Shown here one piece after another: positions 1,505 through 36,100 of a stretch of DNA of 64,000 nt. Origin of the DNA: Branchiostoma lanceolatum (Eukaryota; Chordata; Leptocardii; Amphioxiformes; Branchiostomatidae). The position numbers were made by a program, and so were the translations under genes. Numbering within the stretch: position 1 is the first letter of the stretch; each line of letters begins with the position of its first letter. Under the pieces are notes generated by a model. That model ran no database searches. It had not been told where the DNA came from and saw only the letters and a program-made list of their open reading frames with translations. The stretch spans positions 7,007,383-7,071,382 of the forward strand of contig NC_089732.1 of the NCBI RefSeq assembly GCF_035083965.1, read 5' to 3'.

Positions 1505-4500
1505 CTGCAAGAAAAATCAGAATCATTTGTTGCACATGTAGTTATTGTTGTAAAAAAACTAATTTAGGATAGGGCTATCGGCATACCTTGAGCATTTCAT
1601 TACCTACAAAAGGATTAACATCTACTGAAACATAATTCCATCACATAATTCAGCCACCAAGAAAATGTACGTCCAAACAGATCTCCAACCCAACATCCCA
1701 TAGTATAATGGACTCCTGTATATAAAACCTGTACATACCTGGGGGTGCTGCACTAGAGATGTCTCTAGCCCACTGTTTTTCAAAGTGGCAGATTTATGTA
1801 ACCTGGAGGATTAAGAGGTTGTGGTTTGAACAAATATTTACAATGAAAATGACAGTGAACATCACACTCACCTGTCTCACAGTTGGCACCTGAGAAGGCA
1901 GGTGCACACACGCAGGTGTAGCTGCCCACCTGGTCCAGGCAGGTGGCACCATTCTGACAGGGATCAGACTCACACTCATCAATGTCGATCTCACACAGAT
2001 CAGAGGAGTATCCCACCGGGCATTGGCAGCTGAGGTAGAAAAAAAAATCATATAACTTCTTAAAAAAAGGAAAATCCTGTTAGGAGAGAATTCCTTATCT
2101 GACAAATGAAGACCATTTTGAGTATAATTCATCCCATGGTAGCAGTAAATATCAATTGACCTACAATGAATGATCCAAGGTATGTAAGGCTTGTAAGTGT
2201 GCAAATTGAAAGTCTAAAAGAGACCCCTAGCAGCCGTGAACAGTATGGCAGGTGACAAACTCACCTAAAGGAGTTGACAGCATCAACACAGGTTCCGTTG
2301 TTGAAACAGGGTTGACTGGCACACTCATCGATATCCAAGTGACATCTGTCGCCACGGTAACCGGGTGCACAGGTGCAGGAGAACTGACCAATCAGATCCT
2401 CGCAGACGCCCCCGTTCATGCATGGGCCAGAGTAACATTCGTTCACCTCTATTTCACAGTTTGTTCCTGTACAGACAAAGTCAGTTCTTTGAGTGTTTCC
2501 GTGCTGAGGTTAACATGAAGAGTGATACTAGCAAAGCTGTGAAAAGTAACACTTTAAAGTTTGTCAAGGACAGATGTTGAAATACAATGTTTTCTGTTTG
2601 GAACACACAAGGACTAGACGTATAGAATTGCTTTTGATATTAGGAACATCTGAGTGAAATCATGACAAACAGTTAGTTTTTCATGGAGGTTGTAAGCATA
2701 GTTCACATTGTACTGGGAAGTGTTAATGTTGATCTAATAGTGATCTTATGTTTTCAGTGGTCATGTGTCCGAATGTGTGTGAAGAAGGATTTGACACTGT
2801 TGCAGTGCAAAGGTTTTACAAATGTCTGAGATTTCAGAAGTATGTTAAAAGCCACAAAAGAATACCACATTATCAAGTTTCAGGCCTATTTTTATCATGT
2901 TTTTGAAAAGTTTGTCTGATTTCTACTGAACTTGGAATTTCTTTACATTAACAACTTTGACAATGGTAGCATGAGAACCAGTTTGGGTTTGGTACAAGGG
3001 GAGATGGGTTTTGCAATCTTAGCCATTGTAAGACCAAGAGACATTTTTGATCTTACGACAGCCATTGATGACATAATGTACTTTCACCTGTATATCCCTT
3101 GGCGCAGGTGCACTGGTAGCTGTTTGTCCTGTCCGCACAGGTGCCGTTGTACTGACAGGGAGATGACAGGCACTCATCAATGTCCTCCCCACAGGTGGAT
3201 CCTGGAACACACAGCATGGTAATGTACCTTTGCATTCGAGAGGTTGAAGAGTAGGCAGGTAGGGAATATTCTTCTACAACCGCTTTAATGTGATTCACTG
3301 TCCCTGTGCATTTACGTGTAAGTCAAACCGACATCCTGTACCTTCGTACTTGTGCCTATATTTCAAAAGAAAAGCATGTTCACAACTTTTAGATAGAATA
3401 TTCCAGAGATTGGCGCAAAAACTAAGTTTGAAAATTTCTTCATTGCTGTACCTACAAATCAGGGGACCCAAATTGAGGACTCAAAAAATGTACACTATTT
3501 TACTGAGTATGTGACAGACAGAGATAAAAAGATATTCCATACCTGTGAATCCAGGTGTGCAGGTACAGGTGAACATGTTCAGCTGGTCTTTGCAGGTGGC
3601 ATTGTTCAGACAAGGGGAGGACAGGCACTCATCAATCTCCACTTCACAGTTTACACCTGGGGAAGAAAGAAAAATGGACACTGATCATGAAATCTGCACA
3701 AGTCATGTATTAGGAACAAATAAATTTAAGTACTGTAAATTCACTTTAACTTCGCAGCATCTAGATTTAGCAGTACGGTACAAATCAAGAGTTTGGAGTA
3801 TCATGGTTGAAACAATAATAGCAACACAGAATACTGCAAAACAACTCTAGACCAAAAGTATTTACAAGGTGTCTAAAGCCCCCCCCTCTCACTGGACCCG
3901 CGGCACGCTGGCGTTGTCGCTGTGGCCGATCGAATTGACAAAGCACTCAACGAATTTCATCGACAAAAAACAAATTTTTAAAAGCTTTGTGTGTTTTGTT
4001 GTTTTTTGGGTCATACTTGTACGTTTTGAATGATATTCCCATTATAAAGTCAAGGGTAACACAAATCCAGTTTAGGACGCAGTGACGACGCCAGCGTGCC
4101 GCGGGTACAGTGAGAGGGTGGCTTTACCTGTGTAGCCTGCCACACAGTCGCACACATAGCCAGCACTGATGCTCCTGCAGTCCCCTCCATTCTCACAAGG
4201 GTCGGAGAAACAGTCGTTAAACGTCAGGTCTGCTGCCAACTCAAACTGGGTCACGTTAACGTCCACATAGGCAGCTCTTCCTACAGGGAGACACAGTTCA
4301 CTAACATTATAAAGTATGCTCAAACCTGTAAAAGTGACCACCTACATAAGGACCACCTGGGCAATGGCCAATGTGACCATTCTTTGGTGGTCCCTTAGAT
4401 AATTTTTGGCGACGCCTCAGGGGCGAGCCAAATTTTTACTATATTGTGTGCAGATTGCAAGAATTCTAGGAATTGTACAGGAATGTGAAAGTCCATGGGA

Positions 4501-7500
4501 CGATAACTCAAGAATGCCTGGATGTATTGTCTTCATATTTTGTAGGTGGGTAGGTCTGTGGGAGACCTTGTAATGATTGGATTTTGGGCCCTCTAGCGAC
4601 TTTCTATGGTACTGCAGGGGAACTTTCACTTTTCAAATCTCGTCTTCTGAACATGCTATAGTCATGATTTTTAAGTGGTGGATAGCTCTTTGTAAGGAAA
4701 ATATGTTCTGTAGATTTGGACCCCCTAGTGGCTTTTTTTGGAACTGCAGGAGCTGATTTTGACTCAAACTTTGAAAGAGAATAACGCAAGAAGGGTATGA
4801 CGATTCATCATAATTTTTGGTGTGTAGATAGCTTAAGTGATGATTTACATAATCATATGCCAATTATGCAAATCAATATCCGATTTGCATAATTAATGAG
4901 GACGGTTAATGAATCAGCTGCATTCTATTATAGGACTCTCAAACACATGACATATGTAACTGAGAAAGAGATAAATATCGATAGATATCAATTATGCAAA
5001 TTGATACTTAATTTGCATAATTAATGACAAAATACTATAAATCCATAGTGGTAAATGATGGGGATTTCATTTTCGCACCATTTGGAAGTTAAGTAAATGT
5101 GGCCACTATTAGACACAAATCTTGCATAGAGGGCCTCATTTACATGATTTATGAGGAAATGGTACGATATCTTTTTTTGTGAAAACAAGATTTTCATACA
5201 TTGGACAACTTGTGTTATTTTGGTAGAGAAGGTGATCGACTGATATAATTTGTGCCGAAATTATGCGAGGTCCTTATTTGCATGTAGGCTAAAAACGAAA
5301 ACGTTAACAGAGACCACCGTCGGCATGGCAACATCTTTTTATGTTGCCAATCTTGTTCCCATTACATGCATTACGAATCCTGTCTACAGTGACCACCTGT
5401 CCACATAGACTAAGTTTTATTGGTCCCCTGATTGGTCTTTTTGGGCAGTTTTACTGTATCAATATTAGCTATCCTGGCCCTGTGCTTACAATATATAATT
5501 TTAATTCTGTAACAGCCATCCTAACAAAATCAATGACATCTGATCACAGATGTCAACATAGGATGAATAAACAGTAAGTGCATATAATACAAACTCTTTT
5601 TGGATCACTCATATTATGACCTGCATTGATGTACAAGGTGTAAGCATTCAACTTACTCTATAGACAAATCAAATATGTTCTAAGTTGTAACAACTAGGTA
5701 TGGTTTACAAATTATGTACCCTAGAAAAAACAGCTGACTGCTCAAAAGGAACTGGTGTCAGTTGCCAAAATTTTCAAAACATTTGTGTCTAAAGAAATTG
5801 GCTGGCATCTTGTGTTTACTTGTTCTTTCCTCTGCAGAAACTGATTGATATTTGATAACGTTGCAAGAGCGATTATAATATATCCCCATCCTTCTGCTTG
5901 TGATGCATGTTTGACAGTTATAGATGGTGGTAATCCCCTATGGTGCTGATGTCCCAATTCCCAGGCCAGCACTTCCTTGAGAAGAGGAAACATCCTGACA
6001 CCTGTTTCCCCTGATAACACCCTCCCCTCCTCCTGTAGCGACTCACTTCCTTCTCACATCACGCACACAAACACAACCTTGTACAACCCGAAGTCCCTTG
6101 TCCTACACTTTGTCATGGCCCTTTTGCTTGCACCAAGCTTTTTTTTGCTCTCAGAAGATAAACATTCGGGCAATGAAAATACACCATTGGAAGTTGTGAA
6201 GTGACAATGCCTACTAGTATATAGCAAACACAACCTTGTACAACCCTGAGTCCCTTGTCCTACACTTTGTCATGGCCCTTTTGCTTGCACCAAGCTTTTT
6301 TTTGCTCTCAGAAGATAAACATTCGGGCAATGAAAATACACCATTGGAAGTTGTGAAGTGACAATGCCTACTAGTATATAGCAAACACAACCTTGTACAA
6401 CCCTGAGTCCCTTGTCCTACACTTTGTCATGGCCCTTTTGCTTGCACCAAACTTTTTTTTTGCTCTCAGAAGATAAAGATTCAGGCAATGACAATACACT
6501 ATTGGAAGTTGTGAAGTGACAATGCCTATATCTCTAAAATCTAACTGTCAGTGTCTTAAGTACAATTATTATAAAATAAAGATAATTATATTAATACCAG
6601 AAGACATTAATACATGTATCTGGAGAGTTAGAATCCTTCTCACATATTTTGGTGAATAGAGCAGTACCTGTTTCTATTTCTATAGCCCTTGGGCCACAAA
6701 ATTGTGCAAGAACTATAGCACCGTGTTAGTCCACTCATAGGCATTACAAATGTACCTAGTAGTCCTAATATATCTCTCCTAATAAAACTTGGTTGAGAAA
6801 GTTTGTTCCCCCCTCCCCCATCTCTTTCATGTGATTGGCCCATCCTGATCATGTGATATACAGGATGTAAGGGAGTTGCCCGTAGCGGCACAGGAAATTC
6901 GCAGCTTGTTCTTAACTAGCTCGATACCGAGCAGACATCCACATTATACAGCATCCAGTGCACGTGGCAGTTCAGCTCCTTTCTTTTGTTACGTACCCGA
7001 TCGTTGACTGGAGAATTTCTCTGTGGAACGACCACCTGTTAAGGTAATGTTATTGAAGCTTGTCTTTGATTTGATTGTTTGTTTTAGCACTCTCATGCTT
7101 TAGTACAGGCATCGTCCGTTTTGAAGTTGAAAAGGAGATTGAAATCTCCATGCACTTTTGAACTGCTGTCAAGATTTGATTCGTAACGCTTCTGTCACCG
7201 TGCCAATTAAATAAGTTTCGTAGACCTGTGATAACTAAGCAGATATTGTACTGTCAAAAATATCAGGCTTAGTCAATTCAAAAGATGACTGATTTTTCTT
7301 ACATAGATAGCTTAAAAGAATGTTATCTTTTTAATGTCTTATAAGTTTGGTGGAATCATTCCTGAATGCTGAAATAATTGGATTTCTAGCTCTTAATGAC
7401 ACAGAGAGGTTATTTAGCATGAAACATTAAGTTTACAAATGTATGCCTTCCATTTTCCAACGGGTTTAAATTGAAGAGATCTATTCTTGATGGAATTATC

Positions 7501-10500
7501 TGAAATCAAATTTGAAGTTCCAATGTTTTCCTGCATGTGATATATTATGCACCTGCATTTGAAGCAATTGAAAGGGATTACGGAACAGAAAATCATGGGT
7601 GGTCTGCCTTAATTTTTGTTAACACCACTGGATTCACTCTGAAACATTTCCTCTTGGCTTTGATCTAAGAGGAAATGACAGTTTGTGATAAGAGTAACCT
7701 TACAGATACATGTGTATACACATCGCATAATCTTCATTTAAGAGCTAAAAATCTGAGAAAAAAAACATTTTAAAACTTTCTATTTTCAGATTCCAAATGG
7801 CTGCAACTATGAAGCTATGTGTCCTTGTTGCTGTTGTGCTATTCATGGCAACCAATATCGAAGGCCAAAAGAAGCGTTGTCCACGCATCTGTGTTTGCAA
7901 GCGAGGAACGGTGTACTGTAACCATCGTAACCTGAAAGCCATACCCGCAGAGATACAGCCTTCAACAAAGAGCTTGTACCTCCAAGGAAACAACTTCACT
8001 GTGATTCGATCAAACACTTTTGCCAACCTGACCAACCTAGTAAGATTGTCCCTAGCTGTCAGTAATATACACATTATCGAGGAAGACGCTTTCAAGGGGT
8101 TGAAGAAACTGAGGTACCTAAATCTTCCGGACAACAACATCAGTCAGATCGCTAGTAGGCTCTTCAAAGGTTTCAGCACGCTGCAACTTCTGGATTTAGA
8201 CGACAACAATATTCAGAGTCTTTCCAGTGGTCTGTTCTTCAAAATGCTCAGTCTTAAAACATTGCATTTGAATAACAACAACATCAGTAGACTGGAAAAG
8301 TTTGCCTTTCAAGGGCTAAAGAACTTGCTTGACTTGCACCTCAAGAAAAACTCCATTGCAAGTATATCAACTGAAGCCTTTGTTGGGCTAGAGAACTTGC
8401 AACACCTATATCTGAATGAAAACAAGTTGACTATTGTACCAACCACGTCTTTCGCAGAAACCAAGAACCTCTATCTCCTTCAACTTGCAGACAACGAGAT
8501 AGAAACTCTGGAAAACAATGCCTTTGCCATGCTGCAACAACTTACCTACTTGTTTCTTGGAGGAAACAAACTGAAAGACTTACCAACGGATCCATTCAAT
8601 GCCCTCCCAAGTCTGAGAACATTAAGCCTTCACCGTAACCAGTTCACAACACTCAACACAACTGCTTTCAAAAACTTGTACTCCCTTGAAGCTTTAGATT
8701 TGTCAAATCAGACGATTGAGTGGATTGGAGGTGTGTCATTTGTTGGTCTTGTGGCGCTGGAATCCCTGTCCTTATACAACAACAGTCTGCAGTCCTTGGA
8801 CGAAGATGTGATCCTACCACTACTGCAGATACGGAGCCTGAATCTCAACAACAACCCCTGGAGATGCGACTGTGAACTGCAGGGACTGTGGGAGTGGTTG
8901 CAGGACACCACAGCCAGAACTCGTGTCACCTGTCAATCACCTAAGTCACAGACAGGCCAGGAGCTGCGATTTGTCAAACAGTCAGCGTTGGCATGCAGGA
9001 CATCCACCTTGGCTGAAGATATCTCCACCACAACGACACGCCAGCCAACTAACAGTGACATTGCCAGCACATCACAAGTAAGTACAACAACATCTGTTGA
9101 AGTCATCCCAACACAAGGGTTGTCAACAGCCACCAGAAGTGTGTACACTGGTGATTACTACTTCAGCAACCCCTGGGTGGATGACCAGAAAACTGCCAGA
9201 GCCTACACCGAGCCGGTTACACCAGACAGTAGGGACAACCACACTGCTTACGCTGACCTCTCTAAGGTCACCAATCATGGTAAACATGAGACAGGTCTGA
9301 CGGCAACCCAGTTGACGTTCATCTCGCTCGGCGTGGTTGTTGTTCTGATCGCTGCTATCGTGATGGGGGTTGTGATGTGTCTGGACAGGCAGCAGAGACA
9401 GATCGAGCAGCAGCTCATCATCCCCTCCGAGAACGACCACCCGAACCCCATCGTCAAAACTGACACAGAGATCTGCGGGTACCCTGTCAGCTGGAAGAAC
9501 GGTACGGACCAGGTCGTGAATAACCCCACGTTCGGAGATGTGTCGCCGGGACAGGCGCGGCGGAGCCTGATCGCGGAACTTACGATGGAGTTCGACGAGG
9601 AGACGGAGGAAGTAGCGGACATGCTGACCAAGACGCACGCGTACCACTCCCACAAGAACCACAAAAAGTGCAAGAAGTTCCGCCGAGCTGACAACAAGGA
9701 GGACCAGTTCTCTGATGTTTTGTGACAGTGACATTCATGACATGTACAGGACAGGATGGAAATATCAGACTTGATAATCCATCTTTGTTTCATATTACCA
9801 ATAATATATCTTTCATCCAATGATCCAAATGGACTACTAACAACAAGGTTGACAGTACCCTTGGCAAATGTAAGTTATAACTTATTGTCATTGCCTTTTC
9901 TACTGCGTTATAACTTTAAGAGCTAGCTTCATGATTGTATGGTATTGTGTAACATTAAGAGCTACTACATGTACAGTATACATGTATGGATGTATCTTTA
10001 GTTTAAGGTGTATATCCTGCTACAAGTATGGGACAAGTAACATGGTCACATTTTTAGTCATAACTGTACATTAATTTCTTCTATACAGGGAAGAAAAGCA
10101 GAGGTAATATATCCCATGTGCTGTCCAGAATGTAATGGTGCAGTGTAAAATGTAGCTCCAGCTTTGCAAACTAACATATCATGATGCAATACTGTTCCTT
10201 TGGAAGCATGTCAGTTTTGATTACTAGTACCTTTGTTGCCAAAGGCTTATGTGTGTACACATGACTATGTCACTCTGTATATATAACTTTTATGAACATC
10301 AAAGTTTCATTCTCCATAGAGGACTTTTCAGTATCAAATGCAGTATTTGATTTACATCCTAATTTTACGTAATTTATACATCAGAACCCATGGTTGTTGA
10401 ATAGCTCTGTTAAGTGGTGTACTGTGGAGTATGGCTGTAATAATATAAGAGTATGCATATTCTGTACAAGAAGTAAGATTACATCTAGAAGTCATCATCC

Positions 10501-28500: not shown

Positions 28501-31500
28501 ATATCCAGCTGCAATTTCATCATTGAAATCACTTCGGCAAACAGTTTAATAAGACCGACAAATTGAATGAAATATCTGTGCCAAACCGATCCCGTGTGTC
28601 AGGCAGGTTACTATTCAATCACCTTTAAGACGGACAGGGTTAGCGCACAGGTCGGGCCACACCAATTTCATTTGTTGATTCTCGGATTTTTTCAGAAAAA
28701 TTGGAGCCACAGGGCGAAAAAAAAGTTTTTTGCAAATAGTCTGGGGTGAAGATAAGGGTTTACGTTACATAAAGAATAAGAGAATTATTCAAGTTTCAGC
28801 TTTGTATGGCTCATTTTATGCAAAGAACCCCTTTCTTTAATCTAGTTCTATAATTTCAGTCAAAAATACATTTTGCCGTGCAATATATGGATTGATCTTG
28901 AGAAATAGTTTTAATAAATGAAACATCATAACTTACGATAAAATGTGACCACTCTTTTCACTATGTGCAGGCCCATTTGGTGGCTATTGAGTTTCACAAC
29001 TGACCAAGTAGTAAAATCGTGAGTAAAAATTTGTGAATGAGAATAGCGACCCAATTTTTTTTGGCGCTTCAAAATGGGAAAAACAGGAGAGGCTTTTCCG
29101 AGAAGCAAAAAAAAAAAAAAAATGGTGTGGTCTTGTCGGATGAAACATGAGGGTTAGACCCCTGGCATACCTAGACAGTCATGATGGACGCCGTTTCCGT
29201 AGTATCCCGCCTCACATATACACTGGTACTGTCCCGTGTGCGTGCCGCACCTGTGAAAGAGAAGAACCAACATCGTCATAACAACAATTCCAATATTCTC
29301 TTAACGATTTAATATCGCGGTGACATCGTGACCCCAAATCCCGCGAGATCTCGCTGAAGACATTCTTGAGAAAACGTCACGTTCCACCTCTATCCATCAC
29401 CCAGTCCCGGAAGGCGGCTGACAACATGTTTGCCAGGAGGTTCCCCTGCCGAACGTAAATACTGAACCTCGGCGTCCACACCAATATAAAACGGATTCGT
29501 ACAGCGTAAAACGGGACAGTAAACCGAACCAGTCTTTGCTTGCTTCTCAGGCAAATAGCAGTGGGCAATCTCAAGTCACACAGCTCACGCCGTATCTTCA
29601 GAAATAACGCTGTAGCTGCATGTTCCCGTTTAGAACTTAATTCAAGCTAGCCTCTACTAGGCTCCACAAGTCGCTAGAAAAATAGTAGAAATTGGCCAAA
29701 TAGACCGATATACACCAGAGGAGTTAGTTAGCCAGGGAGTACAGTTTGCGACCTTACTTTTATATCGTTTGAAGAAGACGACTCCCAACAGGCTCCTTAG
29801 GTCACAAACTGTACTCCCTGGCCAGCTAACGCCTGTCTCTCTATTCGGCCAATTTCCACTATCTTTCTAGCTACATGTAGAGCCTGGTAGAGGCTACATT
29901 CAAGCCCACATCCAGACTAGTTTTGCTTCCCAAACCAGTATTTGCTTCTCAGATATCGGTAAGAAAAAGATTAGCTCCGTATTTTTACTGATGAGATTTC
30001 TTACCTGCAGGACGCCGTGACGTCACAACACTTGTTGCCCTGTGGACAGAGCTTCCAACACTTCTCAGGCGTCTCCAAGATGAACTCCCCTCCCTGGAGA
30101 TCTGGTAAAAGAGAAAGTTTTATAGATCTGCTCAAATAAAAGCTCAATTTACGCCAGATATTAGTTACTCAAGCAACAGGATATGATTTTGGAAACGGTC
30201 AGACGTTTCAAACAGCATCCACTACTGACCGTTTCCAAAATCAGATCCAGTTACTTGTCATGAGTAACTGCTGTTTGGCGTGTCTTATTACCTGGATGTC
30301 CAACCTTTATAGACGTAAATGATCCATTTCCTTTGTAAGATGAAGTTTCAGTGTCTAAGATATAAGCCCGCTGTTGTAGTGCTTGCGCGCGCAGCTGTGT
30401 TGCCCAAGGGCTATTGAAAAGGAGATGGGCGCCGCCCTATACACCATAGGATGTGGAAAGGAACTTGATTTTTTTTAAATAAATTAAGCATTCTTATTGT
30501 GTCTTTCTCACATCCACATACGTTACTTTTTGTCTATATAGTAATAGTTAAACTCGACAAAGAGAATGAGATTCAACTTAGGAGTAAAGACAGAATAAAA
30601 AGACTCTTTTTACACAACAAAGTGATTTATTTGCGTAAAAAGAGTATTTTTATTCATCGACTTACTAACCAGATAAAACAAGTTATCCACGGACAGTAAA
30701 GACCGTTTTGAGTAAAACCTTGGTGTAATAGTCAAAGCTGCCCTCAGTCGTTCTCTGTATCTTCGAGGAGTCTCTAACAGCTTGTTTTGCCGGCGCGAAG
30801 CTGTAACATGTCTGAGTGAGGGGATATTTAATGGTGTAGTGTCACCACAGGGCAGTGTGTCAATCCTTGGGTTACCGGGCCGTCTCGTTCCCCTTAAAAG
30901 TGCAGTCGTGTTTATCACTGCTAGCATGCTCTAACGACCAGTCCGTGTGCAGGGTGTGACCTCCCTAACTGTTAGACTATTTATGGTGATTGCGCCGTTA
31001 ACGGGTGAAGACAGAGAGGTTAGGGGCGCTCTTGACATCCCGGGGCATGGCGGGCTAAAGGTCACGTGGTAGGCTTCACAGGTGTCACCCAGGCCGTAGC
31101 TAACAGGTGACGACGGCGTGTATTTTGGGTGCGGAACGGGGTAAATACAGTATATGACAACTGGAAACGAATTTCCAATCTTAAAGGCAACCAAAGCAAT
31201 ATTAGGGCCCGAAAATTGGATTTGAAAGTCAATTTATTAAGTTATTTCTATCCATGATTAGTTCAAACAACACCATCACAATTTATAGCTACGTCCATGA
31301 TGCAAAACTATGACTTCGTTGTAATGTGAGAACTCACTTATAGTCGTCACCGGAGTTTTTGTAGGCTCGCGAAACTATGGGGATCATCGTATGGTATGTT
31401 TTTGCACGGTTTTGAAATGCTCAAAATATAAAGTTATAGCACAAACGTGCTAGACGGTGTTAGGAAATGTCAGTATCATAAAGATTTCAGCATTTTTTAT

Positions 31501-33107
31501 TTCCATATTTTGGGCCCTTATATTGCTTTGGTTGCCTGTAAGGTGGTCACGCCATTAATATTCATCGTTCGTAACTTCAAGTCGATTGTCAATATTACCG
31601 TAAGGCGGTGGCTATACATTAACTGGACTGGAAATTCTCATTTGGTCAAAAGTCGTGAATTAAGGTGAGGCTGTATTTGTTGTCTTTTGCTGATATTTGC
31701 GGTCAGCATAATTTAAGAACGGCTGGATGGATTTGGTATGTGGCTAGATCTTAGAAAGACAAGGAAGGGTCAAAGTCAAGTTTTGCCCCCAGGCGGCCAT
31801 CCTTGGTACTGCAGTAAAACTTCCGGTTTTTGTATCATTTGTCCAGGACATGCTGTGGTCTTATTTCTTAAGGGACTTCCATTAAACCAGCCACAGTCAA
31901 CACTTTTCTGTGCAATTCAAACAAATCAGACGAACGTCATATGCAATAACGCTGACTGCTCGGTAGTTTTTGCACCTGTCTAGTTCCAAATTTTCTAATG
32001 AAGACATTTGTTCTTTTACCCTGCGTGGGAGAAAATGTCAGAGCCTGGCAGGTCTGCAGACACGTTCTCAGGTTGTTACCCAACACGACAGATCAGGATT
32101 CACTTAGCTTCCGTTCCCAGAGGAAAGTTTGAGAGACTTCCAAGAATTAGTGCGACCGAGAGGAACATCTCCAAACCAAGTCCCATTCACGCGGTAGACG
32201 CCGAAACCGAGCTGGGGGTCAAGTTGATCATGCCCTGACATTTCCTGTTTGATACCACAAAGGAAATGGAGACATTCGCAGTCTCGAGAACTTCAGAAAG
32301 CTCAGGCATTTGATTTCAATAATACGTTTAAAGCAATGCGCCATGCTACGGGTTCATGATAAAGGTAAGATTATCAAATCTTCTTGAGCTGGTCACATGG
32401 TTGGCATTTCTACCGTTTGGCGGGTGCCCAGACAATCTACTCTTAACTGACGAACTAGTTTTGGTAATCTCCAAGCAGATGTAGAGTCTGGCTCAGTGTG
32501 TTACGCGTTTTTGCGACAATTAGTACAGTACGTCTTTATGAAAGAAGGGAAAAGAGAAAACCAACCTTTCCCCAGCATTGTTGATCTAATGTAATGACAA
32601 AAATGTATTGCCTTGGTGTGAGGGACATTCTGTTCGTATTTGGAATTTAAAAGATTTCTGGAGAGTTCGGGTTAGGAAAACTACTAATATTACTGTCACT
32701 ATGGTATTTTTACATCCAATGAACAATCATAGTAGTAGTAGTAGTAGTTAGGTACATATATATTACCTTGGTGACAGACAATAAACAAAGAGGCTAACAA
32801 ACAAGCATTTTCCTAGTTCTATACCGTTTCTACCCCAAGAGAAGCAAACCCACCTACCCTCGTGCAGTGCTCGTCTTGCCAAAGCCTCGAACTCGGCAAA
32901 GCTGTCGAGGATGTAGCTGTGCTCCTCTGCCGGTTCCGAGGCCATGTTCTGAAGCTCCTGCGAATCCCAAGAAGTCTGATTTGAATCTATCACCCTAAAT
33001 AGAATATGTTTACTGATAGTTTCTTAGTGTGGGCGATGTGCAATTCGTGCAAAGTATATAAACTTGGCAGTACGTTTTCAGCCAAAATTGAAACAGAAAT
33101 GAATGTG

Positions 33108-33156
<49 letters not shown>

Positions 33157-36100
33157 AAGCATTTGATCAAGTATTACTTCTAAATGTATGGTCATCAGAG
33201 AACTGGATCTACATGTACAGTGATATAAATAACTTCTAATGACATTATCTCGGTTTACACACGCTTTGGGGTCGACTTTAAGGCCCGATTTACACACAAG
33301 TTTTCGGAGTCGACTCGGGGTTGTGTGTGAGGAGCTTTGGGCTGCTCAAGTGGAGTTTTCCTCCTAAAAAACGACCTAGGGTTCTCCTTGAACAGTCATG
33401 AGTAGATTCCAAGTCGACTAAAAAAACGTGTGTAAATCAGGCCTTAGCGGCTCCAAGCCGACTCCGAAAACGTGTGTGTAAACACAACCAGAAGTAGTAC
33501 ATGGGATGCCATGAGACAACTGTCAGACAATAGGGCATTAACTCGAACTACAGGTCATTGACCTCTCCGTGCGGACGTACCTTAACGTTTCCGTTCCGGA
33601 TTCCGAAGGTGAAGATCTGTACGCCGTTCTGCTTGAGTTTGCGCGCTTCGGGCAGGGGGTCCCCGCCGTTGGAATAGCCGTCAGTCACCAGGAACACCGC
33701 CTTGGTGGCGTTCGGACGGGCATGTCGTAGTACTTCCTAGGAAGAACGACATAGAAACATTTCATTTTCTGCAACATTATCTGGAAATAAAATAATTCTG
33801 AAATATGTGTGGTAGTGACAGTTACTAAATAAGGGCCCTGTCATACGTGTGCGTATATTAGATTGCGCATGAGTTGCGCATTAGCAATCTTAGGTTTAAG
33901 GAAAGTTTGCGGGGAAGAAGTTGTTTTCTGCGTTGACCCACCGTTGTGCAGCCTAGTTATCGAACCAAGGAAATGACTTCTTGGGCTGCAAACCTAACCT
34001 AGACCAGAAACATGTTAATACGCAACTCATACGGACTTGAATATACGCGCAACTGTGACAGGGGCTTTACACTGTGTAGCGCACTTGCATAGTAACTCAA
34101 ATTTTGAGAATTTCAAAACCGCAAAAAAACGTGCCGTACGATGATTCCTTTGGTTTCGCGAGCCAACAAAAACCCTGGCGACGATTTTCAGTGAGTTCCC
34201 ACATCACAACGACAGCGAATTTTGCATCATGGACATGGACGTCGCTATACCTTGTGATAGTGTTGTTTGAACTAATGATGTATAGAAATTACTAAATAGA
34301 TAGACTTTCAAAAGTTTCAGGCCCTAATATTGCTTGGGTCTCTCACTGAACCCGCGGCACGCTGGCGTCGTCGCTGCGTCCTAAACTGGATTTGTGTTAC
34401 CCTTGACTTTATAATGGGAATATCATTCAAAACGTACAAGTATGTCTAAAAAGACAGCAAAACAAACAAAGCGTAAAAAGATTTGTATCAATGAAATTCG
34501 TTGAGCGCCCTAGCTGTCAAATCGCTCGGAGTCACAGCGAAGTCGCCAACGTGCCGCGGGTCCAGTGAGATAGGGGCTTTAGGGATAGTGTATTTAGATA
34601 TACAGATAATGCTTTCTCTGCTTAGTACTCAGCACATGGGAAAGGGTATGAAAGTTAAAAGCACGTATGCCCCCTAGCCCCCTGCTGGCTTGCCCAACTG
34701 TGCGGCCCAAGGGCTGTAGAAACGGAGATGGGCGCCGCCCTACACATCACATAGTAAAGACGTTATACAGTGTGAAAGCACGTGTATATGTCTTGTTAAC
34801 AAAAACGTGTGCATTTACGCATTAATACGCACAAATCAATGCGTGTTCAACTTTTCATCCAATAGGTCGAGATTGTGCCGTGTACCCGTGTTCTTTATAA
34901 CGGTTGATAGTGAACAACGCACCATCGCCGGTCGTTGGCTTACCCAACTCCGACAGTCGATACCAAACAAACTGAAACCCTCGCCGACCAAGACTGTCTG
35001 ATAGATGACTGTACATTTTGTAATTAACAAAATAAACAATTGATCAGACGAGTCATTCTTGGTTTAACGGTCCCCTCAGAAACTTTAGATGGATGTTTTC
35101 CGCTCTGCTTCCTCTGAAAGTTTGCCGTTAATTGAAGGGAACTTGGCAAAAAGATGCTTCACATAGCAGCTAATCAAGGTTCAAACAACTGTTGCTGAAT
35201 CTTTGGCGCTAGCAAGTAAGAGTAGCAAAAAGAAGGGTTTCTCAATACATTTTACGTTCTACTTCTAAGCATAGCGCCGCAGTCTTCTCAACGTTTGCCG
35301 TTAATTGAAGGGAACTTGGCAAAAAAGATGCTTCACATAGCAGCTAATCAAGGTTCAAACAACTGTTGCTGAACCTTTTGCGTTAGAAGGCAAGGGCAGC
35401 AAGAGGAAGAGTTTCGCAAGAAGCCAAGTTCAATGTTACGCCGCCAGATGGTATGGTGTCCAGGGATTATCACGGGATCAAGTCCAGGGTTTTACCCAAT
35501 TAATCTCAAGACGGGAGGGTTTAAAAAGGAAACACAGAGCCGCAAACAATGCAGGCATTTACCCTACAGGTGCAAAGGCCAGCGTACAAGGAGGGAAGGA
35601 AAATACGTCCCCAGCTGAGTTTGGGCTCGAGTTATGTGTCTTTGGTATTCAACAATATCACCGGGGAGTTTTCTTCGCGCTTGTAAAAACATTGTCAAGT
35701 TGTACCCGTAACCTTTCTGCGGTGCCTGAAAAAACGCCTGAGTCAATGAGAGAAATGTTTGGATACTAGCGTTGAGGGATTTCCTTTCGATCCTCGCACG
35801 GAGCTTTGCCAATAACGCAAGGGCATTGTTTGGGGAAGGAAAGGCACGTAGAAAGCTATACATGTCTATTGTGGAGAACAAGTGTTCCGTATTTAGGCGG
35901 GTCGAAGGGGTGAGACCTGGATGTTGAAGTCCCCGGCAGCGAGGAGTGCAATTTGTCTGGCATGTCGGCTAGCGGCCGCGCTGAAAGCAGCAGCGAGTCT
36001 TATCGTCAGGAAATGTCTATTACTTCCACTGATGAAGGACGGGGTCACGCGGCCTGCTCACGGGGTCCTCTGCTATTGTTAACTACGACTACCGTCTGTT

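Follow-up and report, generated by a model that had tools for sequence, protein, structure and literature searches.

The window (the whole stretch of amphioxus DNA that we analysed, 64 kb) carries on its minus strand, running from high to low coordinates, domain matches to VWA, sushi, HYR, ephrin-receptor-like, EGF and pentaxin modules. These are all six of the domain types by which SVEP1 is recognized, in order and on one strand, and on the assumption that they belong to a single transcript the arrangement fits an SVEP1-like gene. The initial annotation had named the gene SVEP1 outright; the domain content and order fit this, and we keep the name at "SVEP1-like". That annotation had numbered the EGF exon at issue here (Table 1) exon 21, a number that we treat as provisional; when this exon is compared by itself with the PDB, many EGF proteins match, notch best. 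Three EGF exons of the gene, those ending at 4128, 3543 and 3088, all finish in ...ACAG, in phase 1 and at a shared position within the EGF module, so the splice donor at 4128 is probably older than the transposon insertion described below. Two other features lie among or near the exons. One is a plus-strand frame of 658 aa without stops that carries leucine-rich repeats (7749-9725); it sits between SVEP1-like exons, opposite to them in strand, and looks like a nested single-exon gene. The other is on the minus strand: two adjacent frames at 6054-6426 encode a nearly identical peptide, where about 157 bp seem to have been duplicated in tandem.

Table 1. Features at and around the SVEP1-like EGF exon, in window positions (strand "." where none is assigned).
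Feature	Position	Strand	Description	Basis
EGF exon	4128..4280	-	153 nt, phase 1 at both ends	splice-site and frame scan; Pfam EGF 7.8e-07
Splice donor GTAAAG	4122..4127	-	exon-side G, then TA (presumed duplication) and AAG (tip of element)	sequence; top-scoring GT of exon and intron
Intron	3657..4127	-	471 nt; 220 nt left without element and one TA	
Next EGF exon	3543..3656	-	114 nt, same module end position	
MITE-like element	3876..4124	.	249 bp excluding flanking TAs	inverted arms and second copy in window
TA, intron-interior side	3874..3875	.	presumed target duplication	sequence
TA, donor side	4125..4126	.	presumed target duplication; donor +2/+3 on minus strand	sequence
Left arm	3881..3927	+	inverted repeat	arm comparison
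Right arm	4075..4121	-	inverted repeat, adjoining donor	arm comparison
Second element copy	34340..34581	-	right end TAAAGCC intact; left tip lost, abutting another repeat	

The intron that follows the EGF exon contains a 249-bp element whose first bases are AAGCCCCC and whose last bases are GGTGGCTT; it has inverted ends AAGCC and a TA directly outside each of them, and the positions and bases first given for these tips and flanks proved exact. An ungapped comparison of the two arms gives 87% complementarity over 47 nt; they lie 147 nt apart, and their pairing reaches both TAs once small gaps are allowed, the gap being a longer C run in the left arm. Chance alone often produces a TA with a 5-nt inverted end (in the 64-kb window it occurs in 299 of 195,343 TA pairs spaced 100-800 bases apart), so the case for the element rests on its long arms and on its second copy, which together put it beyond chance. 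The two flanking TAs are presumed to be a target duplication; at 2 bp and palindromic, they would read the same if the element itself ended in TA. The longest stop-free stretch of the element in six frames is 58 aa, and a Pfam scan of one 51-aa stop-free stretch gave 0 families.

The second copy lies in the opposite orientation and marks the element as a member of a repeat family; it is 94% identical to the first over 133 bp, and in a full-length alignment of the two 213 of 261 columns are identical and 19 are gap columns. All three intact element ends in the window read TAAAGCC, and the bases directly outside them differ (TC, GG and CC); the second copy in this way supports a probable edge of the element at TAAAGCC. 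The sequence up to 34339, beside the second copy, matches a repeat at 31293-31190 (84% over 104 columns). We considered this copy as proof of a TA duplication and rejected it for that purpose, since its left tip is missing at the junction with the 31293-31190-type repeat.

The element had at first been called a fold-back transposon. Fold-back elements have very long inverted repeats that make up most of the element, and here the arms are about 47-50 nt each of 249 bp; we withdraw that class and file the element as a MITE, without assigning a superfamily. It has terminal inverted repeats, is short, lacks a transposase and occurs in 2 copies in the 64-kb window; the first copy is flanked by TA left and right, a presumed duplication that is palindromic and 2 bp long, and the second copy lacks one tip. 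TA flanks fit the Tc1/mariner superfamily, whose definition also includes a related transposase in full-length relatives. Beyond the window, pattern scans for relatives of the element gave 0 stretches in viral_contigs, and a search of the phage collection for relatives gave no match. A pattern scan of genome_contigs picked out 6 stretches in bacterial records, which we take as chance, since 18 fixed bases should be matched exactly about 7.5 times by accident in 257 billion bases when either strand is counted. A search of one literature library for the sequence string found no occurrence, and we do not claim that such cases are absent from print.

The exon edge can be read directly: on the minus strand the context is GGCTACACAG/GTAAAGCC (a slash marks the exon-intron boundary throughout), with 4128 as the last exon base by the splice-site and frame scan, which confirms the CAG coding end and the intron start of the initial annotation. 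Removal in silico of the element and one TA yields CAG/GTAGAC, the very donor that had been predicted as the original one. The donors were scored with a matrix built from 16 other donors of the same gene, which were hand-picked by domain and frame without RNA backing and which leave out the gene's other exons whose ends were unclear. With this 16-donor matrix the present CAG/GTAAAG scores 7.07 bits and the rebuilt CAG/GTAGAC 5.32 bits. When the 16 are left out in turn they range from 1.32 to 11.4 bits, eight lying above 7.07, eight below it and two below 5.32; the present donor is thus middling for the SVEP1-like gene. Among the GTs of exon and intron, that at 4128 scores highest in both the present and the rebuilt empty state, and it is presumably the donor used in RNA; second place in the present sequence goes to CAA/GTATGA at 4017 (6.26), within the element. 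The claim that the insertion brought the donor nearer to consensus holds in part. At +4 the change from G to A is toward consensus, and the score rises; at +5 the base is A in both states (G in 14 of the 16 other donors), and at +6 C becomes G while the consensus T is present in neither, so that the gain is small. Positions +4 to +8 are identical to the other two intact tips, so the tail of the donor is an unchanged transposon end and not a later adaptation.

We consider it likely that a TA-targeting MITE inserted at the TA forming +2/+3 of an existing donor, presumably CAG/GTAGAC. The non-autonomous inverted-repeat DNA transposon would have entered that TA, the duplication of the TA would have restored GTA at the exon edge, and the inverted end AAGCC would have taken over +4 to +8, giving CAG/GTAAAG. 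Both ends of the element start with AAGCC, and insertion in either orientation would therefore yield an identical donor. The intron would have lengthened from about 220 to 471 nt while the exon boundary stayed put. The case shows base by base how a donor can take an insertion unharmed: at the TA of GTA, the duplication made by a TA-targeting element itself restores the donor core.

A different history would follow if the element itself ends in TA and no target sequence was duplicated. The empty site would then be CAGGGACACC, which lacks a GT at that place; the transposon would have made the donor beyond its first G, and the exon would formerly have used another donor. That all three intact ends read TAAAGCC, TA included, is predicted by this account and by insertion with a duplication, and the rebuilt sequence does offer a GT slightly downstream (CTT/GTAAAT). 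That GT, however, scores below the top eight sites of the rebuilt empty sequence, and the present exon boundary matches those of the two sister EGF exons in position and phase, which argues against a donor that has moved; we regard this history as improbable. Still less credible, and in our judgment very nearly negligible, is that the intron was born from the element in the manner of an introner and grew later. The element does touch the donor, as introners do, but it is not the whole intron: 220 nt with the acceptor lie outside it, and the position of the intron in the EGF module is the same as in the neighbouring exons. We therefore did not give it introner status.

Insertion into the existing donor might also not have been neutral. 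As RNA, the minus strand of 3870-4135 folds at a predicted -111.9 kcal/mol, against a mean of -68.2 for shuffled sequences (z -9.14; 0 of 200 shuffles as good), and in the predicted fold donor positions +2 to +8 sit in the base of the hairpin, with TAAAGCC paired there. In a growing transcript, positions +2 to +6 are predicted to pair at 0.85-1.0 once it has reached 260-280 nt past the donor, and at 0.11-0.42 when it has reached 320 nt. A hairpin of this strength over +2 to +8 could compete with U1 and cause some skipping of the exon; at 153 nt and phase 1 at either end, the exon would be lost in phase, leaving a protein one EGF domain shorter with its reading frame intact. Against this, the element does not raise the pairing predicted for the whole exon-intron-exon RNA: the values at +2 to +6 are 0.42-0.53 when it is present, compared with 0.45-0.74 for the rebuilt empty state. 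The donor is also transcribed well ahead of the far arm, so that U1 may bind first. The predicted folds do not clearly point to a splicing defect or a donor switch, and we think some skipping unlikely, if a little less so than an element that ends in TA.

The insertion that we favor, into a pre-existing GTA donor, has relatives among known systems, and it is a neat example of transposon-derived splice-site sequence of a kind that is already known and ordinary. The ends of the maize Ds element serve as splice donors; there the donor site falls inside the element, and the exon is changed by it. The present case is like Ds in that terminal bases of a transposon contribute to a donor, and differs in that the exon boundary is unchanged. 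LanceleTn elements are MITEs of amphioxus. PMC5802833 mentions LanceletTn-2 within a gained PRHOXNB intron of amphioxus. Our element resembles these in being a MITE in an intron in the same animal group, a likeness that does not imply that it belongs to a LanceleTn family. Introners, as PMC9860276 describes them, are non-autonomous DNA transposons that make introns, with splice sites composed of target duplication and element bases. The likeness to what is described there is an inverted-repeat element and a splice site in which target duplication, here presumed, and element bases are joined; unlike introners as described there, the present element appears to have enlarged an existing intron and rewritten its donor, and no new intron is evident (PMC9860276).

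How often such an event should occur can be estimated roughly. The window has 4217 TA dinucleotides, and GTA is found in 9 of the 16 other donors, 10 with the site at 4128, or about 0.24% of the window's TAs when only the examined donors of this gene are counted. If two copies per 64 kb, a thin basis, are typical, then for an assumed genome size of hundreds of megabases there might be thousands of insertions, of which, as a rough inference, several or even some tens would have struck a donor TA before selection. On the same rough footing, donor hits may be expected now and then wherever a TA-targeting element is abundant, which speaks against the rarity that the initial annotation had claimed for the case. 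It is tempting to go further and to suppose that TA-targeting transposons can in general land safely at GTA donors, where the duplication would always restore GTA and an AAGCC-like end would be acceptable in either orientation; we offer this as a tentative and rather doubtful generalization. If it were true, donor positions from +4 onward would be replaced repeatedly and introns would lengthen in transposon-rich genomes while exon boundaries stay fixed, a route of splice-site turnover that spares the protein.

Some other repeats of the window touch on this element. An inverted repeat at 33830-34069 has 57-nt arms that are 77% complementary and ends that start TAAGGGCCC and TAAAGCCCC; it may represent a further TA-flanked family whose tip is similar. 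Despite the likeness of its ends (TAAAGCCCC) we rejected it as a relative of the element, the alignment of the two being unconvincing (best E 0.085). The string GCTACACAG is found on the minus strand at 4128-4136, in the SVEP1-like exon, and at 34072-34080, beside the 33830-34069 repeat; it lies just outside the TAAAGCC end at the exon and one base further out at the repeat, which looks unrelated to the element, and the window contains it exactly 3 times. Its presence beside both ends may be due to chance or to a target preference. Finally, the repeat at 31180-31542 and 34240-34339 has inverted arms that begin near CTTAAAGGCAACC, and the second element copy is joined to a fragment of this repeat.
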